The notes under the pieces: generated by a model
Database searches by the model: none
Seen by the model: only the letters and a program-made list of their open reading frames with translations
What the model was told of the DNA's origin: nothing
Part shown: positions 504 through 18,509 of the stretch, in pieces
Layout: the number at the start of each line of letters is the position of its first letter
Numbering within the stretch: the stretch's first letter is position 1
Program-made: the position numbers and the translations under genes
Origin: a virus
DNA length: 20,776 nt
Direction: 5' to 3' (one strand)
IMG/VR virus record: IMGVR_UViG_3300047666_000398
Span: 1-20,776 of that record

Positions 504-1004
504 ATGACATGGACCAATTGGAAAACCCCCGCAACTATAGCACAAGACACAGATGAAGGTATAGACTTCACTGATGGAGATAGTGTATTAGATCAAACCA
601 CAGACCTACAGAGCACTGCGTTGTTGTATGCATCTGCGCAGGATTACAACGACAAAGTCAACACCTATGGCAGCAAGGGACTGATATACACCAACTTTTC
701 ATTTGCTGCTGGTGTGGTTGACAGAGTTGAACTGCGTATAGAAGCACAACGATATTCACGCATTCAAGATGACAGAGTTCAATTGCTTGCACTTGGCACA
801 AGCGGCACAGACGTATCGGATCTCAGCACAGAGAATATCAAAACATACAGTGGACTTCTTGGTGCATATTGGGGGATGGAAGATATTGATGTTGCAGACA
901 TATCGTTTGGAGCACTAATAGATTTTGCTCCAAGAAACGATATGCCCAGCAGCAACAACTTGATTGTGCGCAGTGTTAAGATGCGTGTACACTACTCGTC
1001 TTGA
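504..1004 (+). CDS. Putative virion structural protein
   Basis: This 166-residue protein is rich in Thr, Ser, Asp and aromatic residues, has no transmembrane segment, and shows alternating beta-type patterns ending in SVKMRVHYSS. That composition and ending are typical of small beta-sandwich decoration or fibre-associated proteins in marine T4-like phages. The family assignment is inference; no catalytic motif is visible. I chose the ATG at 504 over the in-frame GTG at 483 because a late-type box (491-498) lies between them, so a late transcript would not contain the GTG. There is no Shine-Dalgarno. The 3' end overlaps the converging helicase gene by 13 bases (992-1004). It is one of three isolated plus-strand genes in the window. 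Confidence 0.7.
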   Translation: MTWTNWKTPATIAQDTDEGIDFTDGDSVLDQTTDLQSTALLYASAQDYNDKVNTYGSKGLIYTNFSFAAGVVDRVELRIEAQRYSRIQDDRVQLLALGTSGTDVSDLSTENIKTYSGLLGAYWGMEDIDVADISFGALIDFAPRNDMPSSNNLIVRSVKMRVHYSS

Positions 1005-2401
1005 CCCAAGCCATTTAGGAAAGCGCGTAACTTAGTGCCGTCGGTTTCTGCTGTTACTTTAGCAACAGGCGCACCCTCAGAAGGATTTGTTGAGCTATTG
1101 CGTTTGAGATTTGCAACAATGCTACTTCCAGTTGTTTGTCCTTGTGGCGAATCTTCATCATCTTCTTCACAGTCGATGATGCGCAAACTGTCAACTTCAA
1201 ACCCTAAATCGATCTTTGAATTAACACCGCTTGAGCTTCTTGTCTTCATCAACTGCAATTGATAACGTCCTCGTTCTCGCATTGCTCTGCTTGTAAATAT
1301 ACCAATCACGTTGTCTGCTGTATTGATTTTACTAAGGCCTCCGGAGATGTGCGAGTGGTCAAATTCAACTTCCTCAACTGCTCCTCTGTTCAGCTGCGAC
1401 GCTGTAACAAAAATTGTCTGCAATTCCATTGCCAAGTTACGTAGTTCTTCACTTACATACTTGTCTTTAACAAACAAGTTTTCTGGAGAAATTTTAACAC
1501 TCAATGGCATCATAAGATCCAAATAGTCAATCAACAGAACATCAATCTTGCGTCCTGTCTTAATTTCGTATTCTTTGATGTAGCTGCGAATATCGTTTGC
1601 ATTCTTGCCAGATGGCATGTACTTGACTTGGAAAGCTCCTGCTTTCTTTCCGATCATCTTAACTTTCATTTCAACATCGTCGATTGTTTTAAACACGTCT
1701 CTGCTGGGAATACCAGTTACCATGCTGTCAATGCGCATACTTACTAGGTTCTCGCTAAGTTCGAATGTTAAGTACAGCACATTCATGCCCATGAGACTCC
1801 AATTGACTCCTAGATTAGCAAGGAATAAACTTTTACCAGCACCCGAACCTCCAGCAAAGATATTAAGCTCGCCTCTGTTAAATCCACCAAACAATTTCTT
1901 GTCTAGGTTTTTCCAGCCTGTGCTCACTTGTCCGTTATTTTCTTTAATTGCTTCTAATCTAGCACGCGGGTTTTCCCAGTAGTCTGTGCCAAGATCTCTT
2001 TGCAATCCAATTTGAACAGCTTTCTTTACCAGTTCTTCAACTGGGCCGTACTCGCCTTTTTCTAACAAATCGGCACTCTGTAGAATTGCAGCTTCCAGTG
2101 CTTTGTGCCTAGAAAACGTTTCAAATTCTGTTAGCAACCAATCGTAATGCGAATCTTGTAGTATGCCCGGATCTTTGAGTTGCGTGTGCGTAGCAGCATT
2201 GATCATGTCAAATGTAGGTAATGCATTATGATCAATGACATAGTTGTTTAGAAATTCGGCAGCAGGCTTTAATCTTCTATCAAACGATTCTGCATCAAAC
2301 ACACTCTGGCAACGTACAAATGTTGCTGCGTCGCTCATCATCATTTCTAAATATACTTTTTGTATATCAAACCCGTAGTCTGTATTTTGTCTTGTACTCA
2401 T
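992..2401 (-). CDS. 41: Replicative DNA helicase, T4 gp41 / DnaB family
   Basis: This is the hexameric 5'-3' helicase that unwinds the phage replication fork and works with the gp61 primase. It has 469 residues, close to the usual gp41 length. Visible features: an N-terminal helical domain (about 1-140); Walker A GGSGAGKS at 184-191; FELSENL near 213-219; Walker B LLIDYLDLM at 289-297; TASQLNR at 333-339, the motif H3-type glutamine region of DnaB helicases; and an arginine-rich segment with QLMKTRSSSG that fits motif H4. The C-terminal 60 residues are low-complexity and Ser/Thr-rich. The ATG at 2401 is preceded by AGAGGT at suitable spacing. The gene is the last of the minus-strand run from the primase and converges on the virion-type gene, overlapping it by 13 bases. 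Confidence 0.95.
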   Translation of the reverse strand: MSTRQNTDYGFDIQKVYLEMMMSDAATFVRCQSVFDAESFDRRLKPAAEFLNNYVIDHNALPTFDMINAATHTQLKDPGILQDSHYDWLLTEFETFSRHKALEAAILQSADLLEKGEYGPVEELVKKAVQIGLQRDLGTDYWENPRARLEAIKENNGQVSTGWKNLDKKLFGGFNRGELNIFAGGSGAGKSLFLANLGVNWSLMGMNVLYLTFELSENLVSMRIDSMVTGIPSRDVFKTIDDVEMKVKMIGKKAGAFQVKYMPSGKNANDIRSYIKEYEIKTGRKIDVLLIDYLDLMMPLSVKISPENLFVKDKYVSEELRNLAMELQTIFVTASQLNRGAVEEVEFDHSHISGGLSKINTADNVIGIFTSRAMRERGRYQLQLMKTRSSSGVNSKIDLGFEVDSLRIIDCEEDDEDSPQGQTTGSSIVANLKRNSSTNPSEGAPVAKVTAETDGTKLRAFLNGLGQDE

Positions 2402-2423: not shown

Positions 2424-2741
2424 TTAGTACCATCCCATAATCATTCTTGTATCCTCAGGAACCATCTCTACAGAAAATTCAGGCTGAAATACCAGTTCTC
2501 TATTAACTGTTGCAACTCCGTCTATGCCTGCAACTGCTTCATATATATCCGAACATATTTCTTCTGCAAACGGACACATCATACTTGTAAGTGTGTGCTT
2601 AACATGTACGTGATCGCCTGTGATATTTATCTCATAAATTAGTCCCAAGTCTTGTACACTAATCCCTGCAATTTCTGGATCGTATACTTCTCTCAGTGCG
2701 TCCTTTACCATGTCTTTGGTGATTTTTTTAATTTGTGTCAT
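2424..2741 (-). CDS. DUF59/MIP18-family Fe-S cluster assembly protein (SufT-like)
   Basis: This 105-residue protein fills one whole MIP18/DUF59 domain. Conserved marks are VYDPEI (19-24), DLGLIY (31-36), the LTSMMCPFAEEI segment (51-62) with the family's cysteine at C56, and a final MGWY matching the hydrophobic end of SufT-like proteins. Members of the family help place iron-sulfur clusters on target enzymes. Here it could support a phage or host Fe-S protein; the target is unknown. The gene has its own strong promoter (2748-2776), whose -10 box lies six bases before the ATG. No Shine-Dalgarno is visible, so the message should be leaderless. It sits between the carbamoyltransferase and helicase genes and is an auxiliary gene in a replication module. 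Confidence 0.85.
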   Translation of the reverse strand: MTQIKKITKDMVKDALREVYDPEIAGISVQDLGLIYEINITGDHVHVKHTLTSMMCPFAEEICSDIYEAVAGIDGVATVNRELVFQPEFSVEMVPEDTRMIMGWY

Positions 2742-2747
2742 GTAATT

Positions 2748-2776
2748 ATTATACTTTAATCAGTTGAAAAAGTCAA
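2748..2776 (-). promoter_or_regulatory. Sigma70-type promoter giving a leaderless DUF59 mRNA
   Basis: On the minus strand TTGACT (2776-2771) is followed by a 17-base spacer and TATAAT (2753-2748), a perfect -10. Six bases (AATTAC) then separate it from the ATG at 2741. The predicted start site is the A of the ATG or within about one base of it. The -35 box overlaps the stop codon of the upstream carbamoyltransferase gene. Confidence 0.8.
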
Positions 2777-4236
2777 TAAACTTTTATATTATATTGATTT
2801 TCAAATTCTATAGCGTCCAACATCGTGTTGACGATAGGCTGCCCTTTTACATTGAGACTGGTATTTAGCAGCATCGGACAGCCTGTTAATTCGTACCATC
2901 TCTCCAACAGTTGACGAAAACCTCTGTTATCGTGTCTTCCAACAGTTTGGACTCTTGAAGTTCCGTCGACGTGGACAATTGCAGGGTATAAAGCAGGATA
3001 TCTGCAATGTGCTGTGAATTGCATATATGGGCCGTAGGATCCGGCAAAAATGTCACTGGCGTGTTCCTCAAGTATAGCTGGTGCAAATGGTCTGAATTCT
3101 TGCCGTTGTTTGATAGTATTAACTCTATCTTTGATATCTGATCCTCGCGGGTCAGCAAGTAGACTACGGTTTCCGAAAGCCCTAGGACCAAACTCGCTAG
3201 GACCGTTAGCAACACCACATATACCAGCACCGCGGGAAAGCTCAATAAGAATTTTAGCAACCGGATATTCTCCTTCTATGTTATAGCCAAGGTAAGGCCC
3301 TGGCCACTTGATACGTTTGTCATAATAGGACAACACTGCGCCGATTGCACTGCCGCTGTCGCCCGGATTAGGCATAACCCATACGTTTTTAAAGTATTCG
3401 TATGCTATTGAGTTGGCGCTGCAATTCAATGCACATCCGCCCATTAGCACTAGATTTTTACTAGGCAACTTGTTGGCAAATGTGCCCAACAAGTGACGAA
3501 GAATATCTTCATACACAAGTTGCGTAGCTGCGGCAATATCGAAGTGGTCCTGTTCAGTGGTTAGATCAGGGCGCCAGTATTTGCAGCCGCGATGTAAATT
3601 CCTATTAAACTTGATCATAGGCTTGCCGCCAATTTCAACAAAGTCACGTTTCACATCATGGTATAGACGATCGCCGTCGCCGTATGCAGCCATGCCCATG
3701 AGAATGTATTCATCCTCCTGTGGCTTTAAGCCAACTCGTTGAGTCATTGCAGTGTACCACAGGCCCACACTATGTGGGTAACGCTGGCTGTATACTTTCT
3801 TCATTCCAGTTAGTGTTGCACTCCACACAGTCAGTGTTTCAAACTCACCAATGCTGTCAATGCACACAACAGTAGCGTCGTAAAACCCACTTGTGTTAAA
3901 TCCAGCAGCGGCATGACTGCGATGATGGTCTACATAATTGATGCGGGCTGGATTGATGTTGTACTGTTGTAGATATTCTTTAACGTTATTCTTCTTGGCA
4001 TTCCAGCCTTGTCCGGCTAGCAACTGACGTGCTGTTTTCTTGTATGGATTTTCATACCACACCACATGCTCGGGTTCACCAAACTGCTTTGCATAATCGA
4101 CCAAGTCTTTGTGCAAATGCGGATCATTTTTTACTCTACTAAATCTTTCACTCTGACTGGCAAACTTCAAGTCGACGTTGTTGTCAAATACTGCAAGCGC
4201 AGCATCATGACTGTTTGCACTGATGCCCCAGATCAA
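2773..4236 (-). CDS. Carbamoyltransferase, NodU/CmcH/TobZ family
   Basis: These enzymes move a carbamoyl group from carbamoyl phosphate, via carbamoyl-AMP, to a hydroxyl on a sugar, antibiotic or modified base. The protein has 487 residues, slightly shorter than TobZ/NodU. The N-terminal Kae1-like domain shows GISANSHDAAL (4-14) and HHRSHAA (104-110), whose histidines bind metal in this family, and GGCALNCSAN (266-275). The C-terminal YrdC-like domain shows GPSEFGPRAFGNRS (345-358), ADPR (361-364) and FRPFAPAIL (381-389). The start is TTG at 4236, overlapping the stop of the small upstream ORF as TTGA, which implies translational coupling. The acceptor is unknown: a glycan or a hydroxymethylated base are both plausible, and members of this superfamily have been reported to modify cytosine derivatives in phage DNA. 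Confidence 0.92.
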   Translation of the reverse strand: MIWGISANSHDAALAVFDNNVDLKFASQSERFSRVKNDPHLHKDLVDYAKQFGEPEHVVWYENPYKKTARQLLAGQGWNAKKNNVKEYLQQYNINPARINYVDHHRSHAAAGFNTSGFYDATVVCIDSIGEFETLTVWSATLTGMKKVYSQRYPHSVGLWYTAMTQRVGLKPQEDEYILMGMAAYGDGDRLYHDVKRDFVEIGGKPMIKFNRNLHRGCKYWRPDLTTEQDHFDIAAATQLVYEDILRHLLGTFANKLPSKNLVLMGGCALNCSANSIAYEYFKNVWVMPNPGDSGSAIGAVLSYYDKRIKWPGPYLGYNIEGEYPVAKILIELSRGAGICGVANGPSEFGPRAFGNRSLLADPRGSDIKDRVNTIKQRQEFRPFAPAILEEHASDIFAGSYGPYMQFTAHCRYPALYPAIVHVDGTSRVQTVGRHDNRGFRQLLERWYELTGCPMLLNTSLNVKGQPIVNTMLDAIEFENQYNIKVY

Positions 4237-4358
4237 TCGTAGTTAAACGGATCTTTTTTACGAAGCGCCCTCATCTTCAAGCGGTACTTTATTTCATCTC
4301 TGATCCAGGTAAGCGGATAGATGATTATTGTAATTATATTAATTATTATTTGAACCAT
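4233..4358 (-). CDS. 41-aa single-pass membrane peptide between primase and carbamoyltransferase
   Basis: An ATG at 4358 opens a 41-codon frame ending in TGA at 4235-4233. The peptide begins with a run of about 16 mostly aliphatic residues (MVQIIINIITIIIYPL), followed by a Trp and then a strongly basic C-terminal half (RDEIKYRLKMRALRKK). This is the layout of a single membrane helix with a positively charged tail. The frame overlaps the 3' end of the primase by 13 bases, and its TGA overlaps the TTG start of the carbamoyltransferase. That tight fit fills an otherwise unexplained 109-base gap. No strong Shine-Dalgarno is seen. I know no homologue, and function is unknown. Confidence 0.6.
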   Translation of the reverse strand: MVQIIINIITIIIYPLTWIRDEIKYRLKMRALRKKDPFNYD

Positions 4359-5329
4359 TTTTTTGCTTTCAGTCTAATCTTTAACGGAGAACTTTCTGCT
4401 GCCGCAGCGATACTAAACAAGGTGTATACTTGCCCGTATCGCTGCACTGCTTCTCCGGTGTCTTTGATGTCTTCTTCCCAGTCGGGCATGCTCACTTGCC
4501 AGCCATACTCAATTGCTTCTTCGACCAATCTTTTACCGGAATAATCTCTGTCCGGTAATAGTATTATATCTTTGTTTAATCTCTTGAGCAACATAACCTG
4601 TTGTTCATTGATCTCTGCTCTCAACAATGCTACTCCATCAATTGGAATAGCGTCCAGCGGGCCTTCGACTACAATACAGAATATTTTATCCGGAGTTTGC
4701 TTGTCTAAATTAAAAAGATAACCAGGCTGAGAGTCAGTTAAGTACTTAGGTTTTTTGTTGGAATTAACAGTCCTTCCTGACCAGCCAACAATTCTATTCT
4801 CGTAATAAAACGGAATAAACAATCTATCTCTGTATTTCAGTTGGGACGACCAGTAATAATTATATCCGTCATCTAGCCAAAGTTTTCTGCTGGACATATA
4901 ATCCATAACTTCGACCAACTTGCCCGATGCACACGGATTGTCCGTTATTAGTGTTGCATCGTCGGGCAACGGCACACTAGCAAATGTAGGCAATTCAACC
5001 AGTCGTTCGACTGACTCAAACCCGTCATTGATTTTTAGAACTTCCAAACTCAACTTGGAAATAACATCGTCTGGTGCGCCAAGCCATTGGAACAGTTTCT
5101 TTAACTTGTACGAAATATGTCTGCCAGGTTGCCAACTGGCTTTGTATCCACAATTGAAGCAATGGTAGCTTACTACCTCGCCTTCTTGTATCACGCCGCC
5201 TCGAGTTCTATTATCAGCAGACTCGCCGTTGTGAACGCAACATACTCCGTTAAATGATATCCATCCGCTGGGGGTTTGCTTGCGCTTGCCAGGCAAAACT
5301 GTCAGCAGTGTGTCTGATACAATACTCAT
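4346..5329 (-). CDS. 61: DNA primase, T4 gp61-like
   Basis: This enzyme makes the RNA primers for lagging-strand synthesis together with the gp41 helicase. The protein has 327 residues, near the T4 gp61 length of about 340. The N-terminal zinc-binding domain shows C30, C31, H33 and the CFNC knuckle at 57-60. The TOPRIM domain follows, with VEGPLDA (221-227) holding the catalytic glutamate and LLPDRDYSG (257-265) holding the DxD pair D260/D262. A sigma70-type promoter ends six bases before the ATG, so the transcript should start at the initiation codon; I see no Shine-Dalgarno and no other nearby start in frame. In T4 the primase and helicase act as a pair; here three accessory genes lie between them. 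Confidence 0.93.
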   Translation of the reverse strand: MSIVSDTLLTVLPGKRKQTPSGWISFNGVCCVHNGESADNRTRGGVIQEGEVVSYHCFNCGYKASWQPGRHISYKLKKLFQWLGAPDDVISKLSLEVLKINDGFESVERLVELPTFASVPLPDDATLITDNPCASGKLVEVMDYMSSRKLWLDDGYNYYWSSQLKYRDRLFIPFYYENRIVGWSGRTVNSNKKPKYLTDSQPGYLFNLDKQTPDKIFCIVVEGPLDAIPIDGVALLRAEINEQQVMLLKRLNKDIILLPDRDYSGKRLVEEAIEYGWQVSMPDWEEDIKDTGEAVQRYGQVYTLFSIAAAAESSPLKIRLKAKKWFK

Positions 5330-5364: not shown

Positions 5365-6150
5365 TTAGTTTCTAATAAGAATCTTGGTTACTGTACCAGC
5401 TGGATCACTGTCTAACTTGAATCTAACAAAGCTTACAACACCATTGAAATTAAACGGAACTGCCTGAGTTTCAGATCCGTCAAATACCATCGTGCCTAGC
5501 GTGCTCCAGTTGTTGATGCCAGTTATCTGATTGTCAAGTGTTGCTTGTATTTCTACCTTGCCAATATATCCACTGGTATAAACTGCAACTGTGTGCAATG
5601 CTTCGTTTCCGTTTAATCCTGGTTGTGCGCCAATCTTGTCAGTGTCATCACTGCCGGCAACCCAGTAGTCCGATACTGTATAAAAGTTGGTGATTGTTGT
5701 GCTGGATTTTGGTCCTGGATAGGCGTTGCCGTCAAGGTATATTATTCCTGCACTTTCAAAACTGCGACTAGCATATGTCACAGTGTTTACTCCGTTGTCA
5801 CTTTTGTAAACATTGTATTTTAGGTATTGTTGTTTTACATTAAGTAATTCGTTGTCTGTGATGGTTACTTCAAACATTCCTCTATTTGCCACAGATGAGT
5901 CATCTGTGACGGTAGTAAGCTTGTTGATTATCATATTGTTGCCTTCGTCAAACACAACAAACACCATATCGGATGTGATTTCCACAGGCTTTTGATCTGC
6001 GTTTAATAATCTAAATTGTATGGTATTATCAATACCTTTATATACTTTTAACTGTCTGCTGTACACTGGTCTATACTCCACTGGGAATCCTGCATCATTA
6101 GATACAACAATTGTTCTCTCATCGACTAAATATCTAGGTATTAGCTGCAT
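5365..6150 (-). CDS. Putative virion structural protein (neck, baseplate or fibre type)
   Basis: This 261-residue protein resembles a family of structural proteins in T4-like cyanophages. The N-terminus reads MQLIPRYLVDERT, then the diagnostic-looking segment VYKGIDNTIQFRL at about 36-48 and further beta-strand rich sequence. The C-terminal half (about 150-261) is another beta-rich unit, ending with VSFVRFKLDSDPAGTVTKIL, as in receptor- or fibre-associated beta sandwiches. No membrane segment or catalytic motif is visible. The ATG at 6150 has AAGGA upstream, and a late-type box (6175-6182) lies about 25 bases upstream. It is a late-looking gene lying just before the primase on the same strand. 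Confidence 0.72.
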   Translation of the reverse strand: MQLIPRYLVDERTIVVSNDAGFPVEYRPVYSRQLKVYKGIDNTIQFRLLNADQKPVEITSDMVFVVFDEGNNMIINKLTTVTDDSSVANRGMFEVTITDNELLNVKQQYLKYNVYKSDNGVNTVTYASRSFESAGIIYLDGNAYPGPKSSTTITNFYTVSDYWVAGSDDTDKIGAQPGLNGNEALHTVAVYTSGYIGKVEIQATLDNQITGINNWSTLGTMVFDGSETQAVPFNFNGVVSFVRFKLDSDPAGTVTKILIRN

Positions 6151-6185: not shown

Positions 6186-6554
6186 ATGTTATTAAAAGAA
6201 ATAGAAGAACAATTTCCATACGTAAGTGTTGTCGCATACGGCGGCAACGAGTATGTCGGAGTGATTGCAAATCAAGATCAGTATGTGACAACAATGTTTG
6301 TGTACACTGGATTAAAAACCAATAGTGATAAACGGTTGTTACTGGATATTGCAGAAACATGGTGGTGGGAATCAAATAGACTCATACCAGTTAGCACCTT
6401 TATGAGGAGAGAAATTGATCCTGTACGTTATTGTATGATGTCAATGAATTCCAAAGATGTAAAGGTTGTTGTAGGACCGTGTGTGAATCTCAATAATTTA
6501 TCATTGAAACGAGTAAAAAGAAAAAGCGTCCAGCTTGTTAAAAAAATTAAATAG
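6186..6554 (+). CDS. Conserved T4-like marine phage protein of unknown function
   Basis: This 122-residue protein contains an alpha/beta N-terminal half (about 1-45), a striking TWWWESNRLIPVSTFM segment around 59-74, and a basic C-terminus rich in Lys and Arg (LKRVKRKSVQLVKKIK). The WWWESNR motif is one I associate with small hypothetical proteins of T4-like cyanophages, but no function is known to me. It is the second isolated plus-strand gene. It diverges from the virion-type gene across 35 bp and overlaps the converging DnaE-like gene by 8 bases (6547-6554). I see no clear Shine-Dalgarno at the ATG. A possible late box (ACTAAATA, 6125-6132) lies 54 bases upstream, but this is weak. Confidence 0.75.
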   Translation: MLLKEIEEQFPYVSVVAYGGNEYVGVIANQDQYVTTMFVYTGLKTNSDKRLLLDIAETWWWESNRLIPVSTFMRREIDPVRYCMMSMNSKDVKVVVGPCVNLNNLSLKRVKRKSVQLVKKIK

Positions 6555-7101
6555 ACGCTTCACAAATTAAGTTCATGTGAACCATTACTGCCATTGCGTA
6601 AGAAAACGCATGTGCCTTCTTAAAGAAATATTGATCAGTAGTCGGCTTGATCCACACTTCCTCAAATATATCATTCCACTCTTTGTCCACCAAGTGTCGC
6701 TTCGCAGGACGAATAATTGCAAGACATGCTGCTAATTTTGCAATAGAGTCAGGCTTGAGCTTTTGCAAAATATTATGATGCCCTGACACGTGAAAAACTG
6801 TATCACTAAATTCCTTATATTGTAACAACTCCCACATAGGTTCTTTGTTGACCAAGTCGTCCATATGAGCATTGTTGCGAACATCTTTGTATATGCTTAC
6901 ATTTAGGAAATCTAACTTAAAATATTTTCTATCCTCGGCTGCTTTGTAATCAATTGTAGCAAGATTATCAATAGGGTTGTGCGGAATTGTAGTAGCATAT
7001 ACACCGGTATTGTGCTTCTTTCCATTTTCAAGTTTTGCAACATGATGCTGTATCTTAGACAGCAATATGTCTCTGTCTGCAAAGTCTATATCGATATCCA
7101 T
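6547..7101 (-). CDS. Miniature DnaE/PolC-like (Pol III alpha) catalytic-core protein
   Basis: This 184-residue protein lines up by eye, in order, with landmarks of bacterial C-family DNA polymerases: DIDIDF at 2-7 (PDxDxDF, two catalytic Asp); NTGVYATT at 31-38 (the His/Ala/Gly-Val segment); FKLDFLNV at 61-68 (KFDFLGL, third catalytic Asp, here D64); TVFHVSGH at 101-108 (FQLES region); CLAIIRPAK at 126-134 (ALxRPGP); and YFFKKAHAFSYA at 158-169 (FNKSHAxxYA). The PHP domain, thumb insertion, beta-clamp, OB and tau-binding regions are absent; DnaE proteins exceed 1,000 residues. It might be a small nucleotidyltransferase, a regulator, or a relic. The start ATG at 7101 directly follows the TGA of the upstream gene, with AAGGA in that gene's last codons. 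Confidence 0.7.
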   Translation of the reverse strand: MDIDIDFADRDILLSKIQHHVAKLENGKKHNTGVYATTIPHNPIDNLATIDYKAAEDRKYFKLDFLNVSIYKDVRNNAHMDDLVNKEPMWELLQYKEFSDTVFHVSGHHNILQKLKPDSIAKLAACLAIIRPAKRHLVDKEWNDIFEEVWIKPTTDQYFFKKAHAFSYAMAVMVHMNLICEASI

Positions 7102-7794
7102 TCATAGGTTTCCTTGTTTGGCAACAGACTTTACAAGTGCTACATCACTGGGTTGTCTTTTAAATCGCATAGCCCAGTGACTGGGATTTAGGATATGGAA
7201 AACTAGGCCTAGTTGTTCGTCATTGAACTTGGCCAGAAGTGCCTTTCCAGAATTACAATTTAATAATAGCCACGGTGATATCTTGCCGTCTTTTATATCA
7301 TACACTGCTCTATTTGTCGAGACGTATGTAAAGTAATGATTCCACACAGACTGATTGGCTTCGGCCCATGCTACCATTGTGTTTACTGATCGCTCTAGTG
7401 CTGTTTCAACACCTTCCTTTATTATAAGGTTAGCAGCATATTCTTCATACATTGCGTCTTTGCACCAGTGATCGAGTTTTACTCCACTTGTAACAACATA
7501 GTCAACATACTTTTCTGGATACAATGGCTTGACATTGTTTACAAAACTTCCAAACTTTACAAATGCTTTGTAAAATGTAGACTTCGTAAACTCTGCATAA
7601 GTCTTATCAGTTTTGTTTCCTGCACTCAATTTATAGAATCGCTGGAAGGCATACAAGCCTAGCTTCACACGCTTTTCGTCTTTTTGTAACCACCTGCGTT
7701 TCGGCTCGCACATATGCACAATCAGAGTACTCTCTTTTGAATAACTCTTTTTGCAATATTCGCAAACAAATTTCTTAGATGCTGACTTTGTCAT
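7102..7794 (-). CDS. Conserved phage protein with an N-terminal zinc finger
   Basis: From the ATG at 7794 the protein has 230 residues. The first 30 hold a zinc-finger pattern: C11-x2-C14-x12-H27-x-C29, within KFVCEYCKKSYSKESTL. The rest is mainly helical, with many aromatic residues and no enzyme motif I know. Proteins of this build occur in T4-like cyanophages next to the 152-aa gene that precedes it here, with unknown role; DNA or RNA binding is a fair guess. A second ATG at 7800 (adding Met-Asp) is also possible. The longer frame to 7857 would overlap the upstream gene by 83 bases and seems unlikely. The stop TGA is immediately followed by the start of the DnaE-like gene, so the two are probably co-translated. 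Confidence 0.75.
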   Translation of the reverse strand: MTKSASKKFVCEYCKKSYSKESTLIVHMCEPKRRWLQKDEKRVKLGLYAFQRFYKLSAGNKTDKTYAEFTKSTFYKAFVKFGSFVNNVKPLYPEKYVDYVVTSGVKLDHWCKDAMYEEYAANLIIKEGVETALERSVNTMVAWAEANQSVWNHYFTYVSTNRAVYDIKDGKISPWLLLNCNSGKALLAKFNDEQLGLVFHILNPSHWAMRFKRQPSDVALVKSVAKQGNL

Positions 7795-8233
7795 ATCCAT
7801 GTTCTCTAGCAAGTTCCTTAATTTGTGCTTTGGTAGATATTCTAGCAAGTAATTCAACCTCGTCTATCTTTTTGTTAGGGTAAATTTCCAATAACAGTTT
7901 TACCGCTTTGTTGTTAATATCCTTGTGTTGCTTCAAGCCAATCCAGGGATGATACTGTATCTTACCAGTATTACCGGCCATGCATAACAATTGCCATTGT
8001 AGCTTAGGATGTCTTGCTCCTAGCACTTCCCAGTTTTTGTTATAGTATTCATTTGTTTTAAACACTGCAAGTTCGGTAGAAGTTCTGTTACCTTTTATAC
8101 TACTAACGTAACGATTTAGCAACCAGAAGCTAACTTGCTTGCGTTGGTCTGTGTCTAGCTCGTCCCAAACGTCTTTTCCGTTTAAGTCAATTGCGGCTAG
8201 TAGATCCTTTACAGGAAGCTTTTCTGCTGGCAT
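7775..8233 (-). CDS. Conserved T4-like phage protein of unknown function
   Basis: This 152-residue, mostly helical protein begins MPAEKLPVKDLLAAIDLN and contains VSFWLLNRYVSS, FKTNEYYNKNW and KLQWQLLCM, followed by a C-terminal ELLARIS...LAREHG segment. I recognise it as a conserved hypothetical of marine T4-like phages, without known function and without a catalytic motif. The ATG at 8233 follows a purine-rich AGAAGAGA stretch. A sigma70-type promoter (8254-8282) stands just upstream, so this gene starts a short transcription unit with the zinc-finger and DnaE-like genes. It overlaps both its upstream neighbour (25 bases) and downstream neighbour (20 bases). Confidence 0.8.
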   Translation of the reverse strand: MPAEKLPVKDLLAAIDLNGKDVWDELDTDQRKQVSFWLLNRYVSSIKGNRTSTELAVFKTNEYYNKNWEVLGARHPKLQWQLLCMAGNTGKIQYHPWIGLKQHKDINNKAVKLLLEIYPNKKIDEVELLARISTKAQIKELAREHGYDKVSI

Positions 8234-8468: not shown

Positions 8469-9029
8469 TTACTTTTCTCCTGTATGAGTTACAGTACACA
8501 TATCTTCGAAAGATGCCTCTTCCCAGTCCCACCAATTGATTCTACAGTTGTTTTCTCTCTTTGGTGTTCCGTCTAAGTTAAATCGAATTTCAATATTACT
8601 TGTTTTTGGAACATCTTTATACATCTTGTACGGAATAACAAAATAATAAAATTGATCTAATTTTCTTTCGTAACATTGTACTCTTAAATCTCCAATTTTA
8701 TTCCTAGTTCCAGAAACCATTGCCGAATATGATTTGCCATAACCGCTTGTTCTAACACACGTAAACTTAGCATCAGAATTATCGCAGTAATCTCTGCCCC
8801 GACCGAGTACAATACGTAGATCTTTGTTCACTACAGCAATTGCTATCTCTAATAAGTCTTCATAAACCAAGGCCGCCATCATACTTTCTTTATCCATTTT
8901 AAAATCCGGATCGTGCTCAAATATCTTATTAATTAAAAACTTTTTAATTGCAATATTAGTATCTACCCGATTTTGATAAAAATCAAGATTTAGTCGGTTA
9001 TGCTCGTCTTTTTTAGATTTAATTTTCAT
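8469..9029 (-). CDS. Unknown protein, 186 aa
   Basis: The ATG at 9029 is preceded by AAAGGA at good spacing, so I chose it over an upstream start at 9083 that would run into the preceding gene. The protein begins with a lysine-rich stretch (MKIKSKKDEHNR). A helical part follows to about residue 65, then a beta-rich second half with VLGRGRDYC, YYFVIPYKMYKD, IEIRFNL and a NWWDWEEASFED segment. It could be a small beta-barrel or nuclease-like fold, but I see no convincing catalytic set and name no function. It lies 10 bases downstream of the candidate PD-(D/E)XK nuclease gene and is likely co-transcribed with it. Confidence 0.7.
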   Translation of the reverse strand: MKIKSKKDEHNRLNLDFYQNRVDTNIAIKKFLINKIFEHDPDFKMDKESMMAALVYEDLLEIAIAVVNKDLRIVLGRGRDYCDNSDAKFTCVRTSGYGKSYSAMVSGTRNKIGDLRVQCYERKLDQFYYFVIPYKMYKDVPKTSNIEIRFNLDGTPKRENNCRINWWDWEEASFEDMCTVTHTGEK

Positions 9030-9039
9030 GGTAATTCCT

Positions 9040-10170
9040 TTATTTTCCAAAGATAAATTGCGTGCTACCCTTGGCTCTGTCATCGTGCCAATTTATTTCG
9101 CAAGTAAATGTTAGGCGTCCTTCATCATAAAGGAACTTGATATCATCAGCAGTGTGTGCAATGCCGTAGCAGCCGTTTTTAGTATTTAGAAACATTACAC
9201 AATCGTGGTCTTCAACAGATTTGTAATAACTAAATGCAACTTGTGCCAATGCCATTTGCATTGCGATTGCTGTAAATCTTCCGTTTTTATCCAATACTGT
9301 CAAGAATTCATCAATCAACAATTGGTCAATGCGTGTGTACAATCCCTGAAGCATAGTAGTGAATATCTTAACCGATCCATTGTAATCTGTATAATCACCA
9401 ATTACTCGATCTAGGTTTGTTAATCCAGATATGTTTAAATTAAATCCGCCGCGTATTACTGGCTTGTCAACTTCCATGCCATGCTCGAGTAATTCTCCCT
9501 CTAGGATGCCTACATCTGCCATTACTTTGTACAATTGCTTGCGAACAGATGTAGGGCTACCGTAGCCCGAAGTTCCACAAAGGCGGCCGCCGCTGTACGA
9601 CTTCCTGCCTTTTACTGTTCCTTTAACTTCGACAACAATAGGGTTAGTGGAAGTTGGCACAGTAAATGTCAAATCGCCTTTTTCTGCAAAATTTATACCT
9701 TTGCCGAATGTGGCTAACAAAAACTCTCCAGGTCCAACATCGCCGCTGCTGTATCCCATCTTGCCGGCCATTGCCGAAATGTCGTTAACATACTGGTATA
9801 ACAATGGAGATTCTGCATTGATCATATCATACAAGTTGGCATAGCTATATTTTAAAAGTTTACTTCCCGAAAACACGCCGTCTTTGCTTATAATTTTATT
9901 GAATAATTCAATTTTTTCTTGTATACTACCTTGCCCATTTATAAATGTATCGAGCAACCGTTTATCATTACCGTTTGACCTACCAAACTTGGAAACCAAT
10001 GCAGATTTTATAACTGGCTGTAAATTTCCCTTGAGTAGATAATTGTGGTAAGATGTTAGCGTATGCAAACAGCTAGTGCTGTTAATATGCTGAGATATTT
10101 CTTTTCTAATTTTTATTACTTCTGGAATAGTTTTCATTTTGTATGGCTTGGGTGTTTTTGTTATTTTCAT
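9040..10170 (-). CDS. Candidate PD-(D/E)XK-fold nuclease
   Basis: This 376-residue protein has a central block with nuclease-like spacing: GPGEF (146-150, E149), KGDLTF (164-169, D166), VVEVKG (179-184, E181 and K183), then GGRLCG (194-199). An E...D-x14-ExK arrangement followed by a glycine-rich GGR is the pattern of PD-(D/E)XK endonucleases and related phage proteins. The flanking regions are helical and unrecognised. Possible roles are host DNA breakdown, recombination or DNA end processing; the sequence does not decide. The ATG at 10170 has AAAAGGA upstream in a 68-base AT-rich gap, which holds no other feature I can defend. Nuclease activity is inferred from the motif only. Confidence 0.6.
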   Translation of the reverse strand: MKITKTPKPYKMKTIPEVIKIRKEISQHINSTSCLHTLTSYHNYLLKGNLQPVIKSALVSKFGRSNGNDKRLLDTFINGQGSIQEKIELFNKIISKDGVFSGSKLLKYSYANLYDMINAESPLLYQYVNDISAMAGKMGYSSGDVGPGEFLLATFGKGINFAEKGDLTFTVPTSTNPIVVEVKGTVKGRKSYSGGRLCGTSGYGSPTSVRKQLYKVMADVGILEGELLEHGMEVDKPVIRGGFNLNISGLTNLDRVIGDYTDYNGSVKIFTTMLQGLYTRIDQLLIDEFLTVLDKNGRFTAIAMQMALAQVAFSYYKSVEDHDCVMFLNTKNGCYGIAHTADDIKFLYDEGRLTFTCEINWHDDRAKGSTQFIFGK

Positions 10171-10752: not shown

Positions 10753-12210
10753 TTAATTCCAATCTATTTTTTCTATAGTAAATGGGTATTCTGCTTCTTT
10801 GTAAAATTTCTTACGTGCAGTAAGGTGCCGCTTGGCAAACTTACATGTGCTGGTAATATCCCATATTTGGACAAAGTCTTTGTCCTTTGCTTTTCTTACG
10901 CCTCTGCCAATTGACTGAATAACTCTAACAAAACTTTTGCCAGGTTCAAACAATACTAAATTAAAGATTCTCGGAATGTTAATTCCAACAGCAGCTACGC
11001 CGTATGTTGCAATAATTACCATGTCTGTGGCATCCTGCACCTTGTCGTATGTTTCTTTTCTATTCTTGGTTTTTACAGATCCGTTGATGAAAACAGAGCC
11101 CGGAATTAGTTGTTGTAATTTTTCGCCTGCTGCAATTCGGTCAACTAAGATTAATGTATTTCCTGAACTTTTTATCTTAATCATCAACTTACCAAGATAT
11201 TCAAGGCGAGCTTCGTCTGATACAAGATACTTGAGTTCTTCTTGATAATTTGTAAATGCCTTGATATCCATCAGTTGACATATATTAACATGACATTTTG
11301 ATAACACACCCTTGTCCTGCAATTCCTTTGCTGTTACGTTTCCTACAACAGGGCCGAGACTTGCAAGTATGCTTTGAAATTCAAATGCTTCTTTGGGAAT
11401 TGTTCCTGTAAGTCCCCAGCGTATTGGTGCATTCTTCAAGTTTTGTGTTAGAATATTTTTCAGTACGTCGGCTTTGGCTTGGTGTACTTCGTCAACTATA
11501 ACAGTCGCTACGTCTTCTAAAAATTCGGCCAAGCTAAGAGTTGAGATGCCGTCTTTGTGGCGCTTGTTGAGTATATTAAGACTCTGCCATGTACAGATGG
11601 TGTGTGTCTTTCCTAGTTCTTTTCTGTCTCCAAAGTAAACACCTACATCTAGTCCGCAATTAATATAGTCTTCTTCTGTTTGTTCAACTAGACTTTTGTT
11701 AGGTACAATAATCAAACTCCTGCCGTACACTTCGCACATTTTAGATAACGTTGCTGTAATAATTGTTTTACCTGCGCCGGTTGCAATTTGCTGTAAACTT
11801 TGTGGATTTTGTATAAAATTGTTAATTGCTTCGACTTGATAGTCTCGTAGTATAATAGGTTCGCCTTCAGCAGGATGCCCTTTTGGCCACACTGTAGAGC
11901 CCCAATAGTTGCAAGTAATAGGTTGAAAATTCAATTCAATTGGAGATCTTTTATCAACAATTTCTGAAATATTCACCTTATTCTTTTCAAGTATCGGTAA
12001 CAATACGTCTAGATGACTCAAGTAGCCGGCGCCGCCGAGCCCAAAAAAGCCAACTTTACCGTCCCACCGACCTAGTTTAAACTGTGGCATGTGCTTTGCA
12101 TAAGGAACTTCGAACTTCAGTGCGTTGGACATCTGTCGTCGCACATCCACTGACAATCCTTCAAATTTTATATTTACTTCGTCTTCGATTATTAATTTAC
12201 ATAAACTCAT
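10753..12210 (-). CDS. uvsW: UvsW-type RNA-DNA / branch-migration helicase (SF2)
   Basis: UvsW unwinds R-loops and branched DNA and helps switch T4 from origin-dependent to recombination-dependent replication. The protein has 485 residues, as in T4 (about 500). It contains the N-terminal UvsW-specific domain (about 1-110, with KLGRWDGKVGFF), the Q-motif-like RDYQ (122-125), motif I ATGAGKT (143-149), Ia IIVPNKSL (167-174), motif II DEVH (240-243), motif III GLTGT (266-270), and C-terminal motifs IV-VI including ATYGVAAVGI (401-410) and QSIGRGVRK (432-440). All key residues are present. It is transcribed after the 392-aa gene with a 19-base AT-rich gap and no clear Shine-Dalgarno. Confidence 0.95.
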   Translation of the reverse strand: MSLCKLIIEDEVNIKFEGLSVDVRRQMSNALKFEVPYAKHMPQFKLGRWDGKVGFFGLGGAGYLSHLDVLLPILEKNKVNISEIVDKRSPIELNFQPITCNYWGSTVWPKGHPAEGEPIILRDYQVEAINNFIQNPQSLQQIATGAGKTIITATLSKMCEVYGRSLIIVPNKSLVEQTEEDYINCGLDVGVYFGDRKELGKTHTICTWQSLNILNKRHKDGISTLSLAEFLEDVATVIVDEVHQAKADVLKNILTQNLKNAPIRWGLTGTIPKEAFEFQSILASLGPVVGNVTAKELQDKGVLSKCHVNICQLMDIKAFTNYQEELKYLVSDEARLEYLGKLMIKIKSSGNTLILVDRIAAGEKLQQLIPGSVFINGSVKTKNRKETYDKVQDATDMVIIATYGVAAVGINIPRIFNLVLFEPGKSFVRVIQSIGRGVRKAKDKDFVQIWDITSTCKFAKRHLTARKKFYKEAEYPFTIEKIDWN

Positions 12211-13414: not shown

Positions 13415-13443
13415 ATACTAGCATGTTACATGTACTGTGTCAA
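13415..13443 (-). promoter_or_regulatory. Sigma70-type promoter giving a leaderless mRNA for the 392-aa gene
   Basis: The minus strand has TTGACA (13443-13438), a 17-base spacer, TAGTAT (13420-13415), then TACATT and the ATG at 13408. The -35 lies within the last codons of the upstream glycosyltransferase-like gene. The spacing is identical to the primase and DUF59 promoters. It likely drives the 392-aa gene and uvsW. Confidence 0.78.
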
Positions 13444-14271
13444 GTTATTCAGCGGAATACCGTGAGCAATTTCTGCAATAGTATATTCTGTGTGTGCAAG
13501 GTCGTTTAGCCATTGTTGTCTATCTGGCATTAGAGGGTTTTCAATTTGTGTTAGGTCTTGCGAAGCTACATCATGTGCCAAGCTGCTGGATCCTACAAAT
13601 GCCGGCACTCCTTCTCTAACAGCTTGCACCCCAGGGTTACTACTCCAATTTACAACACTCCATGCATCTTTGTACTGTAAATCGTAATCGTCATACGATC
13701 CCTTGATCAACCGGGGCTGCTGTATACTTACATCTTTATATTTAGAATTGTTGTATGATAATGGACAACGCGGGTGAGGTCGTACAATAATTTCTCTATC
13801 AGTGTGTTGTCGGATAGTGTCAATTGATTCTGATACCCATGCGTTAATAGTCGGCATATTTGCCCATTGTAGGCTTTTGTTGTGCTGGCAGCAAATATAA
13901 ATAGGTCCTCCCTTGCTCCGCCAAGGTTTTAGATCAAGGCCGAGCTGATCAGCACGACTGTTGTTGTTTCCAGTTGGTGAAAAGTATGCATCTCGGTTTA
14001 TTCCGTTAAGTCCTACCTTCCATGTAGTACCTCGTTGTAACCCGCCGACTTCAAGAACTATTACATTTCGATGAGTTTTTCTAAAATAATCCCATATTGG
14101 TTTGTTGCCTACCATCCTACCATTCCAGAGAACACTCCATATTACTGCAACATCAGCATGCATATCGTCGCCTAGTGATCTGTGACCGCTGTCAATTAAA
14201 CTCTTTTCAAATGCATCAAAAACAGGTTTGCTGTTGAGCGCACCATATTCTCTAAAGAGACTGAATTTCAT
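13426..14271 (-). CDS. GT-B-like glycan transferase (capsule-synthesis type)
   Basis: This 281-residue protein resembles capsule-polysaccharide / CDP-glycerol-transferase-like GT-B proteins. Useful marks are EVGGLQRG (74-81), GPIYICCQ (122-129), HTDREIIVRPHPR (156-168; the HP is the typical donor-site signature), WSSNPG (209-214) and EGVPAF (220-225). It lacks a signal peptide and membrane helices, so it should act in the cytoplasm. It is related to the proteins at 15140-16054 and at the C-terminus of 16041-17741, which share the HTDR-x-I-x-(V/I)R-x-x-P block. The ATG at 14271 has TAAGGT upstream and a late-type box (14292-14299). Donor and acceptor are unknown. Confidence 0.75.
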   Translation of the reverse strand: MKFSLFREYGALNSKPVFDAFEKSLIDSGHRSLGDDMHADVAVIWSVLWNGRMVGNKPIWDYFRKTHRNVIVLEVGGLQRGTTWKVGLNGINRDAYFSPTGNNNSRADQLGLDLKPWRSKGGPIYICCQHNKSLQWANMPTINAWVSESIDTIRQHTDREIIVRPHPRCPLSYNNSKYKDVSIQQPRLIKGSYDDYDLQYKDAWSVVNWSSNPGVQAVREGVPAFVGSSSLAHDVASQDLTQIENPLMPDRQQWLNDLAHTEYTIAEIAHGIPLNNLTQYM

Positions 14272-14272
14272 A

Positions 14273-14280
14273 GTTAAATA
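14273..14280 (+). promoter_or_regulatory. Candidate late promoter box for the plus-strand GT-A gene
   Basis: GTTAAATA lies 29 bases upstream of the ATG at 14310. Two of its eight positions differ from the T4 late consensus. The resulting leader would contain AAAGGA near the ATG. It faces a second late-type box on the other strand within the same 38-bp gap. Confidence 0.4.
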
Positions 14281-14291
14281 CCTTACTACTG

Positions 14292-14299
14292 TATTTAAA
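14292..14299 (-). promoter_or_regulatory. Candidate late promoter box for the GT-B-like gene
   Basis: TTTAAATA on the minus strand differs from the late consensus at one position. It lies 20 bases upstream of the ATG at 14271, leaving a leader with TAAGGT. Together with the box at 14273-14280 it makes a compact divergent late promoter pair. Confidence 0.45.
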
Positions 14300-14309
14300 G
14301 GATTTACAA

Positions 14310-15152
14310 ATGACAGATATAACTGTGGTTACAACATTTCACAAAGAGGGAATGGACTTGTACGGACAACGGTTTTTAGATAGCTTTGCTCAACGAGTCG
14401 ACAAGAAAGTTAAACTTTTAGTGTACACTGAAAATTGCAAGCCTGTTAACCCAGACGAGAATCAGATTACAATTCTTGATGCAGCACTGGTTTTACCAGA
14501 CTTGAATGCGTTTAAGATGCGGTGGAAAGATGATCCAAAAGCAAACGGAATTCCTCCTGCTGACATTCGTGCAAAGCGACAACGCGATCATCACAAAGCA
14601 TTCAAGTGGGATGCTGTACGGTTTGCCAACAAGACCTACGCCGTGTACGACGCTTGTAGACGCTGTACAGACTGGTGTGTGTGGATGGATGCCGACACGT
14701 TTGTACACAGTGATTGGAGTTTTGATCAATTCAACGAGTGCCTGCCGAAGACCAGCTGGATCACATATGTGGGCCGTGGCAAAGGATCGCAAACATGGCC
14801 CGAGTGTGGGTTCTATGGCATGAATTTAAAAGATACAGTGTGTCAGGAATTCTTGGCAGAGTTTGAAAGAGTATACACTGATGCACCAAATGGAATCTTT
14901 TTACTCGAAGAATGGCACGACAGCTTTGTGTTTGGAGATATTGTAAACAAGATGAAACAACTTGCGCCAAATGTGTTGGATTATAGTGCAGAGATGTACT
15001 TGAGGGAAGCAAAGACAGGCGGAGGCGGGCATCCTCTTATTAATACCAAGTTAGGACAATGGATTGACCACATGAAGGGCAACCGAAAGAACGCCGGAAA
15101 GAGTTTGACTAAGGACCTAATAGTTGACAGAAACGAAGGTTACTGGCAGTAA
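14310..15152 (+). CDS. GT-A-fold glycosyltransferase
   Basis: This 280-residue protein starts with the GT-A-type opening MTDITVVTTFHKEGMDLYGQ and has the metal-binding DxD as WMDADTFVH (DAD at 127-129). A GRGKGSQTWPECGFYGMN segment follows at about 155-172, then an EEWHDSFVF acidic stretch suited to the acceptor side. It ends with a basic tail. Such proteins transfer a sugar from a nucleotide donor; the target may be a phage or host glycan, a virion protein or modified DNA. The ATG has AAAGGA upstream. It is the only plus-strand member of the sugar cassette, and its last 13 bases overlap the end of the converging GT-B-like gene. Confidence 0.82.
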   Translation: MTDITVVTTFHKEGMDLYGQRFLDSFAQRVDKKVKLLVYTENCKPVNPDENQITILDAALVLPDLNAFKMRWKDDPKANGIPPADIRAKRQRDHHKAFKWDAVRFANKTYAVYDACRRCTDWCVWMDADTFVHSDWSFDQFNECLPKTSWITYVGRGKGSQTWPECGFYGMNLKDTVCQEFLAEFERVYTDAPNGIFLLEEWHDSFVFGDIVNKMKQLAPNVLDYSAEMYLREAKTGGGGHPLINTKLGQWIDHMKGNRKNAGKSLTKDLIVDRNEGYWQ

Positions 15153-16054
15153 TTGCGCATGTGCCGCCAGCATTCGCCTGATTCTAGTTCATCAAATTTC
15201 CAATGGAACATGCTAATACGTTCCAGCCACCGTTGGCGGTCAAACTCTTGAGGATTTTCGATATTTCTAAAATCGATATTGCTAACTTCGGCACACTGGC
15301 TATCAGCAGGATCTGTTAAGAAGCAATGATACCCTTCTATAATTGGGCCGACTGCTGCGCTACTATTATGATTTATTATGGCCCATGCTTTATGCAAGTC
15401 AGTAGTCAAGCTAGTGCCAACTGCACTTATTCTGACATTGCTCATATGTTTTATAGAATTATTTAAAGTGTTTATATATGTAGCTGCTGATTTATCACCC
15501 GGGTGTGTTCTAATTATTATAGGCCTGTCAGTATGTTGGCGCAGTTGGGTAATTGTTTTTATTGCCCATTGTTGCACATCTGTACCTTTTAAACTCCAGC
15601 CTTTGTTGCGTTGCAGCATTAAAACAATACTTTTTCCTTTAACTTTGTAATCTTCTAATTGTATATTAGTATCTTTGGAAATTTGATTCCATCGTATAGG
15701 ATTAACATCAGTGTCGCAATAAATTCCAGTAGTCGGAAATATGCCATTAAAGCTGTATCGCAAGTACCCGTGCGGATTTGTTTTATCTTTATACAAAAAT
15801 AAATTGGCGTCACCAGTTACTACTTTTTGAGCATCAATAATTTGTTTTCTTAATTTCAAATGAGCACTGCTAGTGTCAGCATACACCCACCCCTGTATCA
15901 CTGCTACATCTGCAGTTTGTATAACTTCTGAGTTACTAACAATTCCAGTGTCGCCTGCTGCATTTACGCCTTTAATAAAGTTAATTAACAATTGCGGTTT
16001 TTGCTGATTGCTATTGCGAGCCGGAACAGTTTTTAAATAACTAACTACCTTCAT
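15140..16054 (-). CDS. GT-B-like glycan transferase, paralogue
   Basis: This 304-residue protein is related to its two cassette neighbours. It has ADVAVIQGWVY (48-58), matching the ADVAVIW region of 13426-14271; a YLRYSFNG segment (97-104); LMLQRNKGWS (145-154); HTDRPIIIRTHPGDK (174-188) with the HP donor-site signature; NHNSSAAV (228-235); and IENPQEFDRQRWL (265-277). The repeated IENP...DRQ(Q/R)WL C-terminal block in the two stand-alone paralogues is strong evidence of duplication. The ATG at 16054 lies inside the 3' end of the fusion gene (14-base overlap), with no strong Shine-Dalgarno, so translational coupling is likely. It is probably cytoplasmic; substrate unknown. Confidence 0.75.
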   Translation of the reverse strand: MKVVSYLKTVPARNSNQQKPQLLINFIKGVNAAGDTGIVSNSEVIQTADVAVIQGWVYADTSSAHLKLRKQIIDAQKVVTGDANLFLYKDKTNPHGYLRYSFNGIFPTTGIYCDTDVNPIRWNQISKDTNIQLEDYKVKGKSIVLMLQRNKGWSLKGTDVQQWAIKTITQLRQHTDRPIIIRTHPGDKSAATYINTLNNSIKHMSNVRISAVGTSLTTDLHKAWAIINHNSSAAVGPIIEGYHCFLTDPADSQCAEVSNIDFRNIENPQEFDRQRWLERISMFHWKFDELESGECWRHMRNYCQ

Positions 16055-17741
16055 TTAAAATATGCCATGCAGTTCCATTGGCTAATTCACTTGATGTGAA
16101 TTGACAATAGCTCAAATGCCTTGCTAACGGTATTTGTAAATCTATCGCAGGAGTTGTTAAGTTTTCAATCTGATCAATACTGGTATTGCACACAGATGTT
16201 GCTGCATTGGGCGCTAATGCAATAGCAGGTAGTCCAAACAAAAATGCTTCTGTTGCAGCAATACTATTAAATGTAACTAAACAATGTACGTCATCTTGCA
16301 TTGCTTGCCAAATTGGGTTGCTAGTAACTCTGTCTGTTCGATTAGGTTTTAATCTAATTTCGATAGGCCTGTCGGTGTGTTTTTTAATTTCGGTAATAGT
16401 TTCAGACATCCATTCGTCGAGATCCTTGCCGTAAAACATCATTACTTTTTCACTCGGTGGTACAAGTAATATTTTACGACCAGTCTTGAACTTTCCGGGT
16501 TTAAAATTTAATTTATCAAGACGGCTATTGTCTCTAGCGACCAGCGGATTTGTATTTTGCAGTCCATTAAATGATACTCTATGATACTGTTTTTTAGTTC
16601 CGGGTTGTAAATATCCGGTGTCTATAGCATAAAAGTTTCTTTTGTTTTCTAAACAATATCGAAGAGCAGTTTGACTAGTGCTACCAAGGCCTCGAATAAC
16701 TAGTGTCGACTCGCCACTAGGATTTATTTTATTCCATTCACTAATGGTGCCGCCGCTGCCTAATACAAAATCTCTAAGATATGGATCATATAAATGTCCT
16801 TTTTTAGCAGTATTAAAATCACCCTTTGATGGCGATATAGCTACAACTTTTACTCCCATTTCGATGTCCTTTAAATCGTGCAATTGCTTTTTTGTTTTAT
16901 ATGCCACTTCGTCTGGATCTATTGTACTTTGTAAAAATAACTCAATTAGATTTTTTTTTTGATCCGAAAGAGTCAAGTCACTTATGCCTATTACTCTTTC
17001 TTCATTAGCGGTCATTCTAGTTTCAAGGACATTTATATTAGTTTTTAAAAAGTTAATATGTGCCTTGTACCAATCAACTGCGTATTCGCAATCTTGGTAT
17101 TCTTCAAACCACGGCCCGCCATTTGTGTAATGAATAAGGTCAGGAATACCGTTAGTAGGTTGGCTATACCATCCAACTAACCAATTCCACGTATGGCTAA
17201 TCTTACCAAGTTCAGAGTCGTGTAGCCAGCTAAATCTGTGTAGGAAAGCACCGGTCTTTTCGGGGTCATTAACAAATTCTTTTGTAACTATTTTGTTACT
17301 AGTATGCCCGCAATTGACAAGCATCATGCTTGACCAGTTTTTACGAGGGTACGGAAGTTGCTGCTTGCCGTCCATCTTTGTGCCTTCTTTAGGAGTGTAG
17401 TCATGTTGGGCACACATAACTGCATACTGATCATCTACTTGATCAAACAGTTCTTTAATGTCTGTCTTAAGGACTACATCGCAATCTATAAACAGCGCCC
17501 ATCCTTGAAAATTGCAAAGTTCGGGCAATAGAAATCTAGTAAATGTAAATTCTGTTGATGCAAGAGTATCTGTTGGTCTGCTGTACAGTCCTTTTCTTAT
17601 TAAATCTTTTTGTTTTAGAGGAACTATTTCTACTGGGACACTAGCAGTGTCAAGTATACTTTGTTTGCAGACTTGATAAGCAATATCTTCTCGGCTATCC
17701 CAGCCAATAAAAATTCTTAATGGTTTAATCTCTTCGTTCAA
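16041..17741 (-). CDS. Two-domain glycosyltransferase: GT-A N-terminus fused to a GT-B-like C-terminus
   Basis: This 566-residue protein has two units. Residues about 8-230 form a GT8-like GT-A domain: LRIFIGWDSREDIAYQV (8-24), TEFTFTRFLLP (63-73), the DxD as FIDCDVVL (84-91), and LHDSELG...HTWNWLVGW (173-191). Residues about 300-566 match the GT-B-like paralogues: HTDRPIEIRLKPN (455-467), FNSIAATEAFLFGLPA (491-506) and IDQIEN (522-527). The HP of the paralogues is KP here, so the donor-site histidine is lost. The start is TTG at 17741 with GGAG at suitable distance, overlapping the upstream gene by 17 bases. A run of ten A residues in the mRNA lies at codons 261-264, in the linker. Confidence 0.82.
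   Translation of the reverse strand: MNEEIKPLRIFIGWDSREDIAYQVCKQSILDTASVPVEIVPLKQKDLIRKGLYSRPTDTLASTEFTFTRFLLPELCNFQGWALFIDCDVVLKTDIKELFDQVDDQYAVMCAQHDYTPKEGTKMDGKQQLPYPRKNWSSMMLVNCGHTSNKIVTKEFVNDPEKTGAFLHRFSWLHDSELGKISHTWNWLVGWYSQPTNGIPDLIHYTNGGPWFEEYQDCEYAVDWYKAHINFLKTNINVLETRMTANEERVIGISDLTLSDQKKNLIELFLQSTIDPDEVAYKTKKQLHDLKDIEMGVKVVAISPSKGDFNTAKKGHLYDPYLRDFVLGSGGTISEWNKINPSGESTLVIRGLGSTSQTALRYCLENKRNFYAIDTGYLQPGTKKQYHRVSFNGLQNTNPLVARDNSRLDKLNFKPGKFKTGRKILLVPPSEKVMMFYGKDLDEWMSETITEIKKHTDRPIEIRLKPNRTDRVTSNPIWQAMQDDVHCLVTFNSIAATEAFLFGLPAIALAPNAATSVCNTSIDQIENLTTPAIDLQIPLARHLSYCQFTSSELANGTAWHILNEGS
16951..16960 (-). repeat. A10 homopolymer at the domain junction of the GT fusion gene
   Basis: The coding strand reads GATC, then ten A, then TCTAATTGAG. 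In frame this gives D-Q-K-K-N-L. Losing one A puts TAA two codons on, and gaining one puts TGA three codons on. Polymerase or ribosome slippage would therefore release a GT-A domain of 264 or 266 residues without the C-terminal half. Confidence 0.8.
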
Positions 17742-18495: not shown

Positions 18496-18509
18496 ACAAG
18501 TACTTATTT

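Follow-up and report, generated by a model that had tools for sequence, protein, structure and literature searches.

The window, by which we mean the whole 20,776-nucleotide stretch analysed here, is a piece of an uncultivated phage genome and carries on its minus strand a gene for a 184-residue protein, hereafter the C half. The gene, its landmarks and the conserved genes around it are listed below. The fractions give the number of related loci in which a neighbour is kept, counted over the loci with enough flanking sequence (74 upstream and 62 downstream of the C half).

10753..12210, minus strand: UvsW-like helicase at the far end of the conserved cluster (69/74 loci)
7775..8233, minus strand: 152-aa protein of PHROG 11758, the conserved second gene upstream of the C half (72/74 loci)
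7102..7857, minus strand: C2HC zinc-finger protein of PHROG 11058, directly upstream of the C half (same-strand neighbour in 74/74 loci)
6547..7101, minus strand: C-half gene, 184 aa, of a putative split minimal Pol III alpha (PHROG 11778, conservation, AlphaFold2, Foldseek)
7078..7101, minus strand: start codon and catalytic motif MDIDIDFA of the C half, with D2/D4 equivalent to E. coli D401/D403 (motif alignment)
6907..6924, minus strand: YFKLDF, residues 60-65 of the C half, with K62 and D64 equivalent to E. coli K553 and D555 (conservation, motif alignment)
6595..6630, minus strand: YFFKKAHAFSYA, residues 158-169 of the C half, the E. coli K758/H760/Y764 region (HMM alignment, conservation)
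6186..6554, plus strand: small convergent gene of PHROG 11637, sharing 8 bases with the 3' end of the C-half gene (62/62 loci)
5365..6150, minus strand: conserved protein matching a virion structural family (61/62 loci)
4346..5329, minus strand: DnaG-type primase, T4 gp61-like (62/62 loci)
992..2401, minus strand: DnaB-like replicative helicase, T4 gp41-like (57/62 loci)

The stop codon of the zinc-finger gene abuts the start of the C-half gene. Because the C-half ATG immediately follows this TGA, an earlier start in the frame is impossible and the true start is M-DIDIDF; the chain begins at the catalytic motif itself, as the original prediction had claimed. The landmarks DIDIDF (2-7), KHNTG (29-33), YFKLDF (60-65, including D64), LAACLAIIRPAK (123-134) and YFFKKAHAFSYA (158-169) follow one another in the same order as their counterparts in E. 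coli DnaE, which motif positions and HMM alignments place at 401-406, 510-514, 553-558, about 628-641 and 753-765. The E. coli equivalents are DFDVDF at 401, KHAGG at 510, KFDFLG at 553, RPG at 639 and KSHSAAY at 758, and further landmarks in the C half are RP (131-132) and KKAH (161-164). From these positions D2 and D4 correspond to D401 and D403, K62 and D64 to K553 and D555, R131 to R639 and H164 to H760, so that the predicted order of the landmarks, with all three aspartates, was borne out.

The chain comprises the catalytic Asp strand, a further palm segment and what is left of the fingers. The Mg-binding aspartates and the template-binding subdomain are present and the GS motif is absent. 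In the HMM alignment the 15 residues at 11-25 stand in for E. coli residues from about 411 to 506, which we take from the 2006 crystal structure to be essentially the thumb, and residues 135-157 stand in for about 643-752, reducing the fingers from about 110 to about 25 residues. Full fingers are not found on the 184-residue chain, nor are the PHP domain, the clamp-binding part and the thumb, whose loss had been noted from its sequence.

Homology to Pol III alpha, also predicted originally, is evident at the profile level. The C half matches phrog_11778, annotated 'DNA polymerase', with E = 4e-58 (residues 1-182 on profile positions 7-194 of 197). The Pfam match, to the finger domain, was weak and sub-threshold (E = 0.0086) and a single-sequence phmmer search against PDB returned only chance matches to kinases, which is why the similarity is easily overlooked; it came out with a profile. 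Sequence identity to DnaE is low (20-26%). An AlphaFold2 model built from a 110-sequence alignment reached a pLDDT of 93.6; the alignment was needed, as the single-sequence model (pLDDT 33.8) was useless. When this model was compared with PDB by Foldseek, the best 14 matches were all Pol III alpha, PolC or other bacterial C-family polymerases, among them those of Thermus, M. tuberculosis and E. coli, the best with E = 8e-4 and a probability of 1.00. Phage Pol III was among the matches to viral models. TM-scores were modest, about 0.4-0.46 on the query, as is expected for a core with large deletions. The comparison with DnaE/PolC structures that had been proposed as a check thus confirmed a resemblance to Pol III alpha beyond chance.

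Lack of conservation of the three aspartates among homologues had been named as a refutation, and they proved to be conserved. All 126 distinct C halves keep D4 and D64, as well as D6, H30, G33, K62, L66, P88, W90, P117, I130-R131-P132, K134, H164 and Y168. D2 is kept in 125 of them, the remaining row being gapped at this position. Comparison of the C-half gene with its two nearest relatives gave dN/dS values of 0.058 and 0.029, and the gene is under strong purifying selection.

The palm of the E. coli enzyme is built from a stretch bearing the GS motif (GRGSGAG at 361), the strand with Asp401 and Asp403, and a second stretch at about 511-560. Only the last two are found on the window chain; in its relatives the GS stretch is encoded by a separate gene, the N half. 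Searching the complete relatives Phosso, Atu_ph07, RaK2 and PA5oct with Pfam DNA_pol3_alpha gave one short match in each, and N halves match this profile with E down to 5e-12. Their ORFs are 169-177 aa long and end in WGVGRGSSVASYVLFLIGVHKVDSLKYNLDIKEFLK directly before the stop codon; some N-half reads that run past stops are tblastn extensions through an upstream stop. By hhalign, the N half covers E. coli residues 313-393 and the C half covers 507-642 plus DIDIDF at 401, which places the break in a loop of about seven residues. Against M. tuberculosis DnaE1 the last aligned position of the N half is 407 and the first of the C half is 415. The hallmarks of a C-family palm are divided, with the three catalytic aspartates and the basic residue beside the third on one chain and the GS loop on the other. 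G-x-G-R-G-S is invariant in 131 distinct N halves. Beside the chain break, E. coli R390 aligns with a near-invariant Glu (E174 in P0003 numbering, 129 of 131 N halves), and nucleotide handling may differ as a result.

No N half was found on the 20.8-kb window; since the window is a genome fragment, that of the same phage would lie outside it. Scans of IMG/VR with three N-half queries found hundreds of N halves, with none of those listed coming from the samples that hold the C halves of 86-92% identity. Halves of the split polymerase occur in hundreds of environmental contigs, and no fusion of the two genes was seen in 167 C-half and 251 N-half loci. A gene for a clamp-loader large subunit (gp44-like) or an AAA-ATPase is found a few genes away from the N half in RaK2, Phosso, PA5oct and Atu_ph07, gp44 being near it in RaK2 and Atu_ph07; the same four phages have a GroES-like, chaperonin or head-morphogenesis gene next to or near the N half.

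Almost without exception, the phages checked have both the N and the C half and also a family-B polymerase. The C half was found in 90 phage records and the N half in 87 (RaK2 query), with a near-identical genus make-up. The Phosso N half as query gave 113 phage records, and the additional ones, where inspected or annotated, were mostly ordinary longer phage Pol III. RaK2, PA5oct, Atu_ph07 and Phosso each carry both halves and a family-B polymerase. The same holds for a 357-kb contig, with a C half that shares 61% identity with that of the window and the family-B polymerase in a 908-aa frame, and for seven further large environmental contigs. The few N-half contigs that have no C half include no known complete genome. 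Both halves, with catalytic motifs intact where read, are also present in two 141-kb Alishewanella phages, which are below the jumbo limit, and the C half is kept by phages that infect Alpha- and Gammaproteobacteria. A family-B polymerase is present in most large related contigs and was not seen on the 20.8-kb window fragment. Its presence in the relatives upholds the view that the 184-residue protein is not the main replicase. The alternative suggested originally, a minimal nucleotidyltransferase, has to be given up as a self-sufficient enzyme because the NTP-binding half of the palm, with the GS motif, is a separate, co-occurring gene.

The neighbourhood of the C half is conserved. The gene order is UvsW, a 168-aa protein (present in 72 of 74 loci), the PHROG 11758 protein, the zinc-finger protein, the C half, the convergent gene, the structural-like protein, the primase and the DnaB helicase. 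In the zinc-finger protein a C-x2-C ... H-x-C pattern (C32, C35, H48 and C50) is invariant. The protein was found in 87 phage records, compared to 90 for the C half, and is a candidate for an associated subunit of the split polymerase. The PHROG 11758 protein looks gp62-like by eye, and two members of its family weakly match clamp-loader PHROGs (E about 0.05). Its identification as the clamp-loader small subunit gp62 was rejected, as hhalign scores against four gp62 sequences did not exceed those of shuffled columns. In the window the fixed order is interrupted at 8469-10170 (minus strand) by two adjacent proteins of 204 and 376 aa without family matches, a pair present in only 2 of the 74 related loci.

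The window carries further genes. Between the carbamoyltransferase and helicase genes, at 2424-2741 (minus strand), is a gene for a MIP18/SufT-type Fe-S cluster assembly protein (PF01883, E = 1e-18); the NodU-like carbamoyltransferase itself (2773-4236, minus strand; PF02543/PF16861, PHROG 1601) is a phage auxiliary gene. A sugar-related cluster at 13426-19681 encodes a GT8 glycosyltransferase, a fusion of a cytidylyltransferase with a cupin (mannose-6-P isomerase-like), two methyltransferases, one of them FkbM, and several glycan-type proteins to which no Pfam family matched. The match to the PHROG for UvsX recombinase at 20369-20776 (minus strand) is confined to profile positions 347-446 of 506, indicating that what lies at the window edge is the C-terminal part of UvsX.

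In their group 2.2 of jumbo phages, Iyer et al. (2021, PMC7824862) described a minimal Pol III alpha that is specific to phages and consists of two proteins whose genes lie far apart. One chain, N-terminal, binds NTP and the other, C-terminal, binds Mg and the template; the pair accompanies a family-B polymerase, and a role in strand sharing or repair was proposed (Iyer et al. 2021, PMC7824862). Judged from its sequence, the window protein belongs to this family, whose division into two chains and company of a family-B polymerase are seen in its relatives; it differs in that it comes from an uncultivated contig with the C half only. The split enzyme as such had already been reported in 2021 (PMC7824862), which limits the novelty of the present findings. 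We found no mention in the literature of the exact junction (E. coli 393/401), the thumb deletion, the C2HC zinc-finger neighbour, the fixed synteny with UvsW, primase and helicase, or the presence of both halves in 141-kb phages. A search of the open literature, with subscription journals and preprints outside its scope, found no biochemical follow-up of the split polymerase.

With bacterial DnaE and PolC the split enzyme shares the palm core, the residues equivalent to D401/D403/D555 and K553, the RP and KxHxxxY motifs, and the fold. In contrast to them it consists of two chains, lacks the PHP, thumb, clamp-binding, OB and tau-binding parts, retains only a remnant of the fingers and has Glu in place of R390. 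The full-length phage Pol III alpha of PHROG 405 (e.g., of Pseudomonas phage nickie) has the same C-family palm but, like the Pol III of Tenacibaculum phage Larrie, is 1100-1200 aa in all and a Pol III-type replicase by annotation. Larrie Pol III (L428:3146-6726) is encoded by two adjacent genes, with the break about 57 codons after the FLN motif and not before DIDIDF. Another split phage Pol III alpha gene, in Thomasclavelia phage TR-TP1 (L430), is interrupted by an HNH endonuclease gene. What the literature calls a 'split DNA polymerase' in phage MIJ3 is something else, a family-B polymerase split by an intein.

We consider it probable (about 0.78) that the 184-residue protein forms the C-terminal part of a minimal C-family polymerase made of two chains, which works beside the family-B replicase of large T4-related phages. 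The partner chain of about 170 aa, encoded elsewhere in the genome, would bind the nucleotide triphosphate through its GxGRGSS loop, and the window chain would contribute the K-D strand, all three of the aspartates that bind metal, and a short piece of the fingers that binds template and nucleotide. The chains would associate along the split palm sheet as a heterodimer, with the break in the 7-residue loop, to form one two-metal-ion active site, and from the conserved motifs this pair is predicted to be catalytically active. The absence of the thumb, PHP, clamp-binding, OB and tau-binding parts points most likely to a short-acting polymerase of low processivity. Loss of the thumb and the clamp-binding part in particular argues for short synthesis events or help from other proteins, and the likeliest role would be extension of gaps or primers, or synthesis during repair, beside the family-B replicase. 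Grip on DNA and recruitment may come from other replisome proteins, the neighbouring zinc-finger protein being the best candidate. Against this reading, the drastically shortened fingers and the missing thumb leave DNA binding unexplained. A more specific version, in which the N half (GS loop), the C half (Asp triad) and the C2HC zinc-finger protein make up a three-protein accessory replicase, the smallest known C-family polymerase, acting alongside the family-B replicase in, for example, primer extension or gap filling on one strand, is possible but, in our view, rather doubtful.

The same losses might instead mean that the pair is a catalytically dead or vestigial Pol III-like scaffold, a structural part of the replisome that serves, for example, as a platform for primase, helicase and clamp loader. 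Loss of the thumb, most of the fingers and all accessory domains, the presence of a family-B polymerase and the fixed place beside the primase and helicase genes would all suit such a scaffold. A dead scaffold should, however, have shed at least some of D2, D4, D64, K62 and GxGRGS; the catalytic motifs are invariant on both chains, in more than 120 distinct sequences each, which argues for an active enzyme and makes a scaffold improbable. We find it just as improbable that the pair is an active nucleotidyltransferase that does not copy DNA and uses its Pol beta-type palm to add nucleotides to RNA or protein, or to make a small nucleotide product. The palm core is kept while the parts that hold template and duplex are strongly reduced, and the N half has Glu at the R390 position, as such an enzyme might, but the RP and KxH finger motifs, which are tied to DNA polymerase function in the family, are also kept and the neighbouring genes are those of DNA replication and recombination. 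Phages do make inhibitors of host replication and the C half resembles part of host DnaE, but the earlier suggestion that it mimics or blocks DnaE, which would shut off host replication, is scarcely credible, given that identity to DnaE is only 20-26%, that the catalytic parts rather than the clamp- or tau-binding parts are kept, and that it leaves unexplained the invariant catalytic residues, the obligate, matched N half and the place among phage replication genes across phages of Alpha- and Gammaproteobacteria, very different hosts.

C-family polymerases are large, multi-domain enzymes that are thought to need a thumb, a clamp and exonuclease partners. A widespread and strongly conserved two-chain version of about 355 residues would reveal the minimal active site of the family, and it raises the question of why phages already equipped with a full T4-type replicase retain a polymerase core of bacterial type as a second one.
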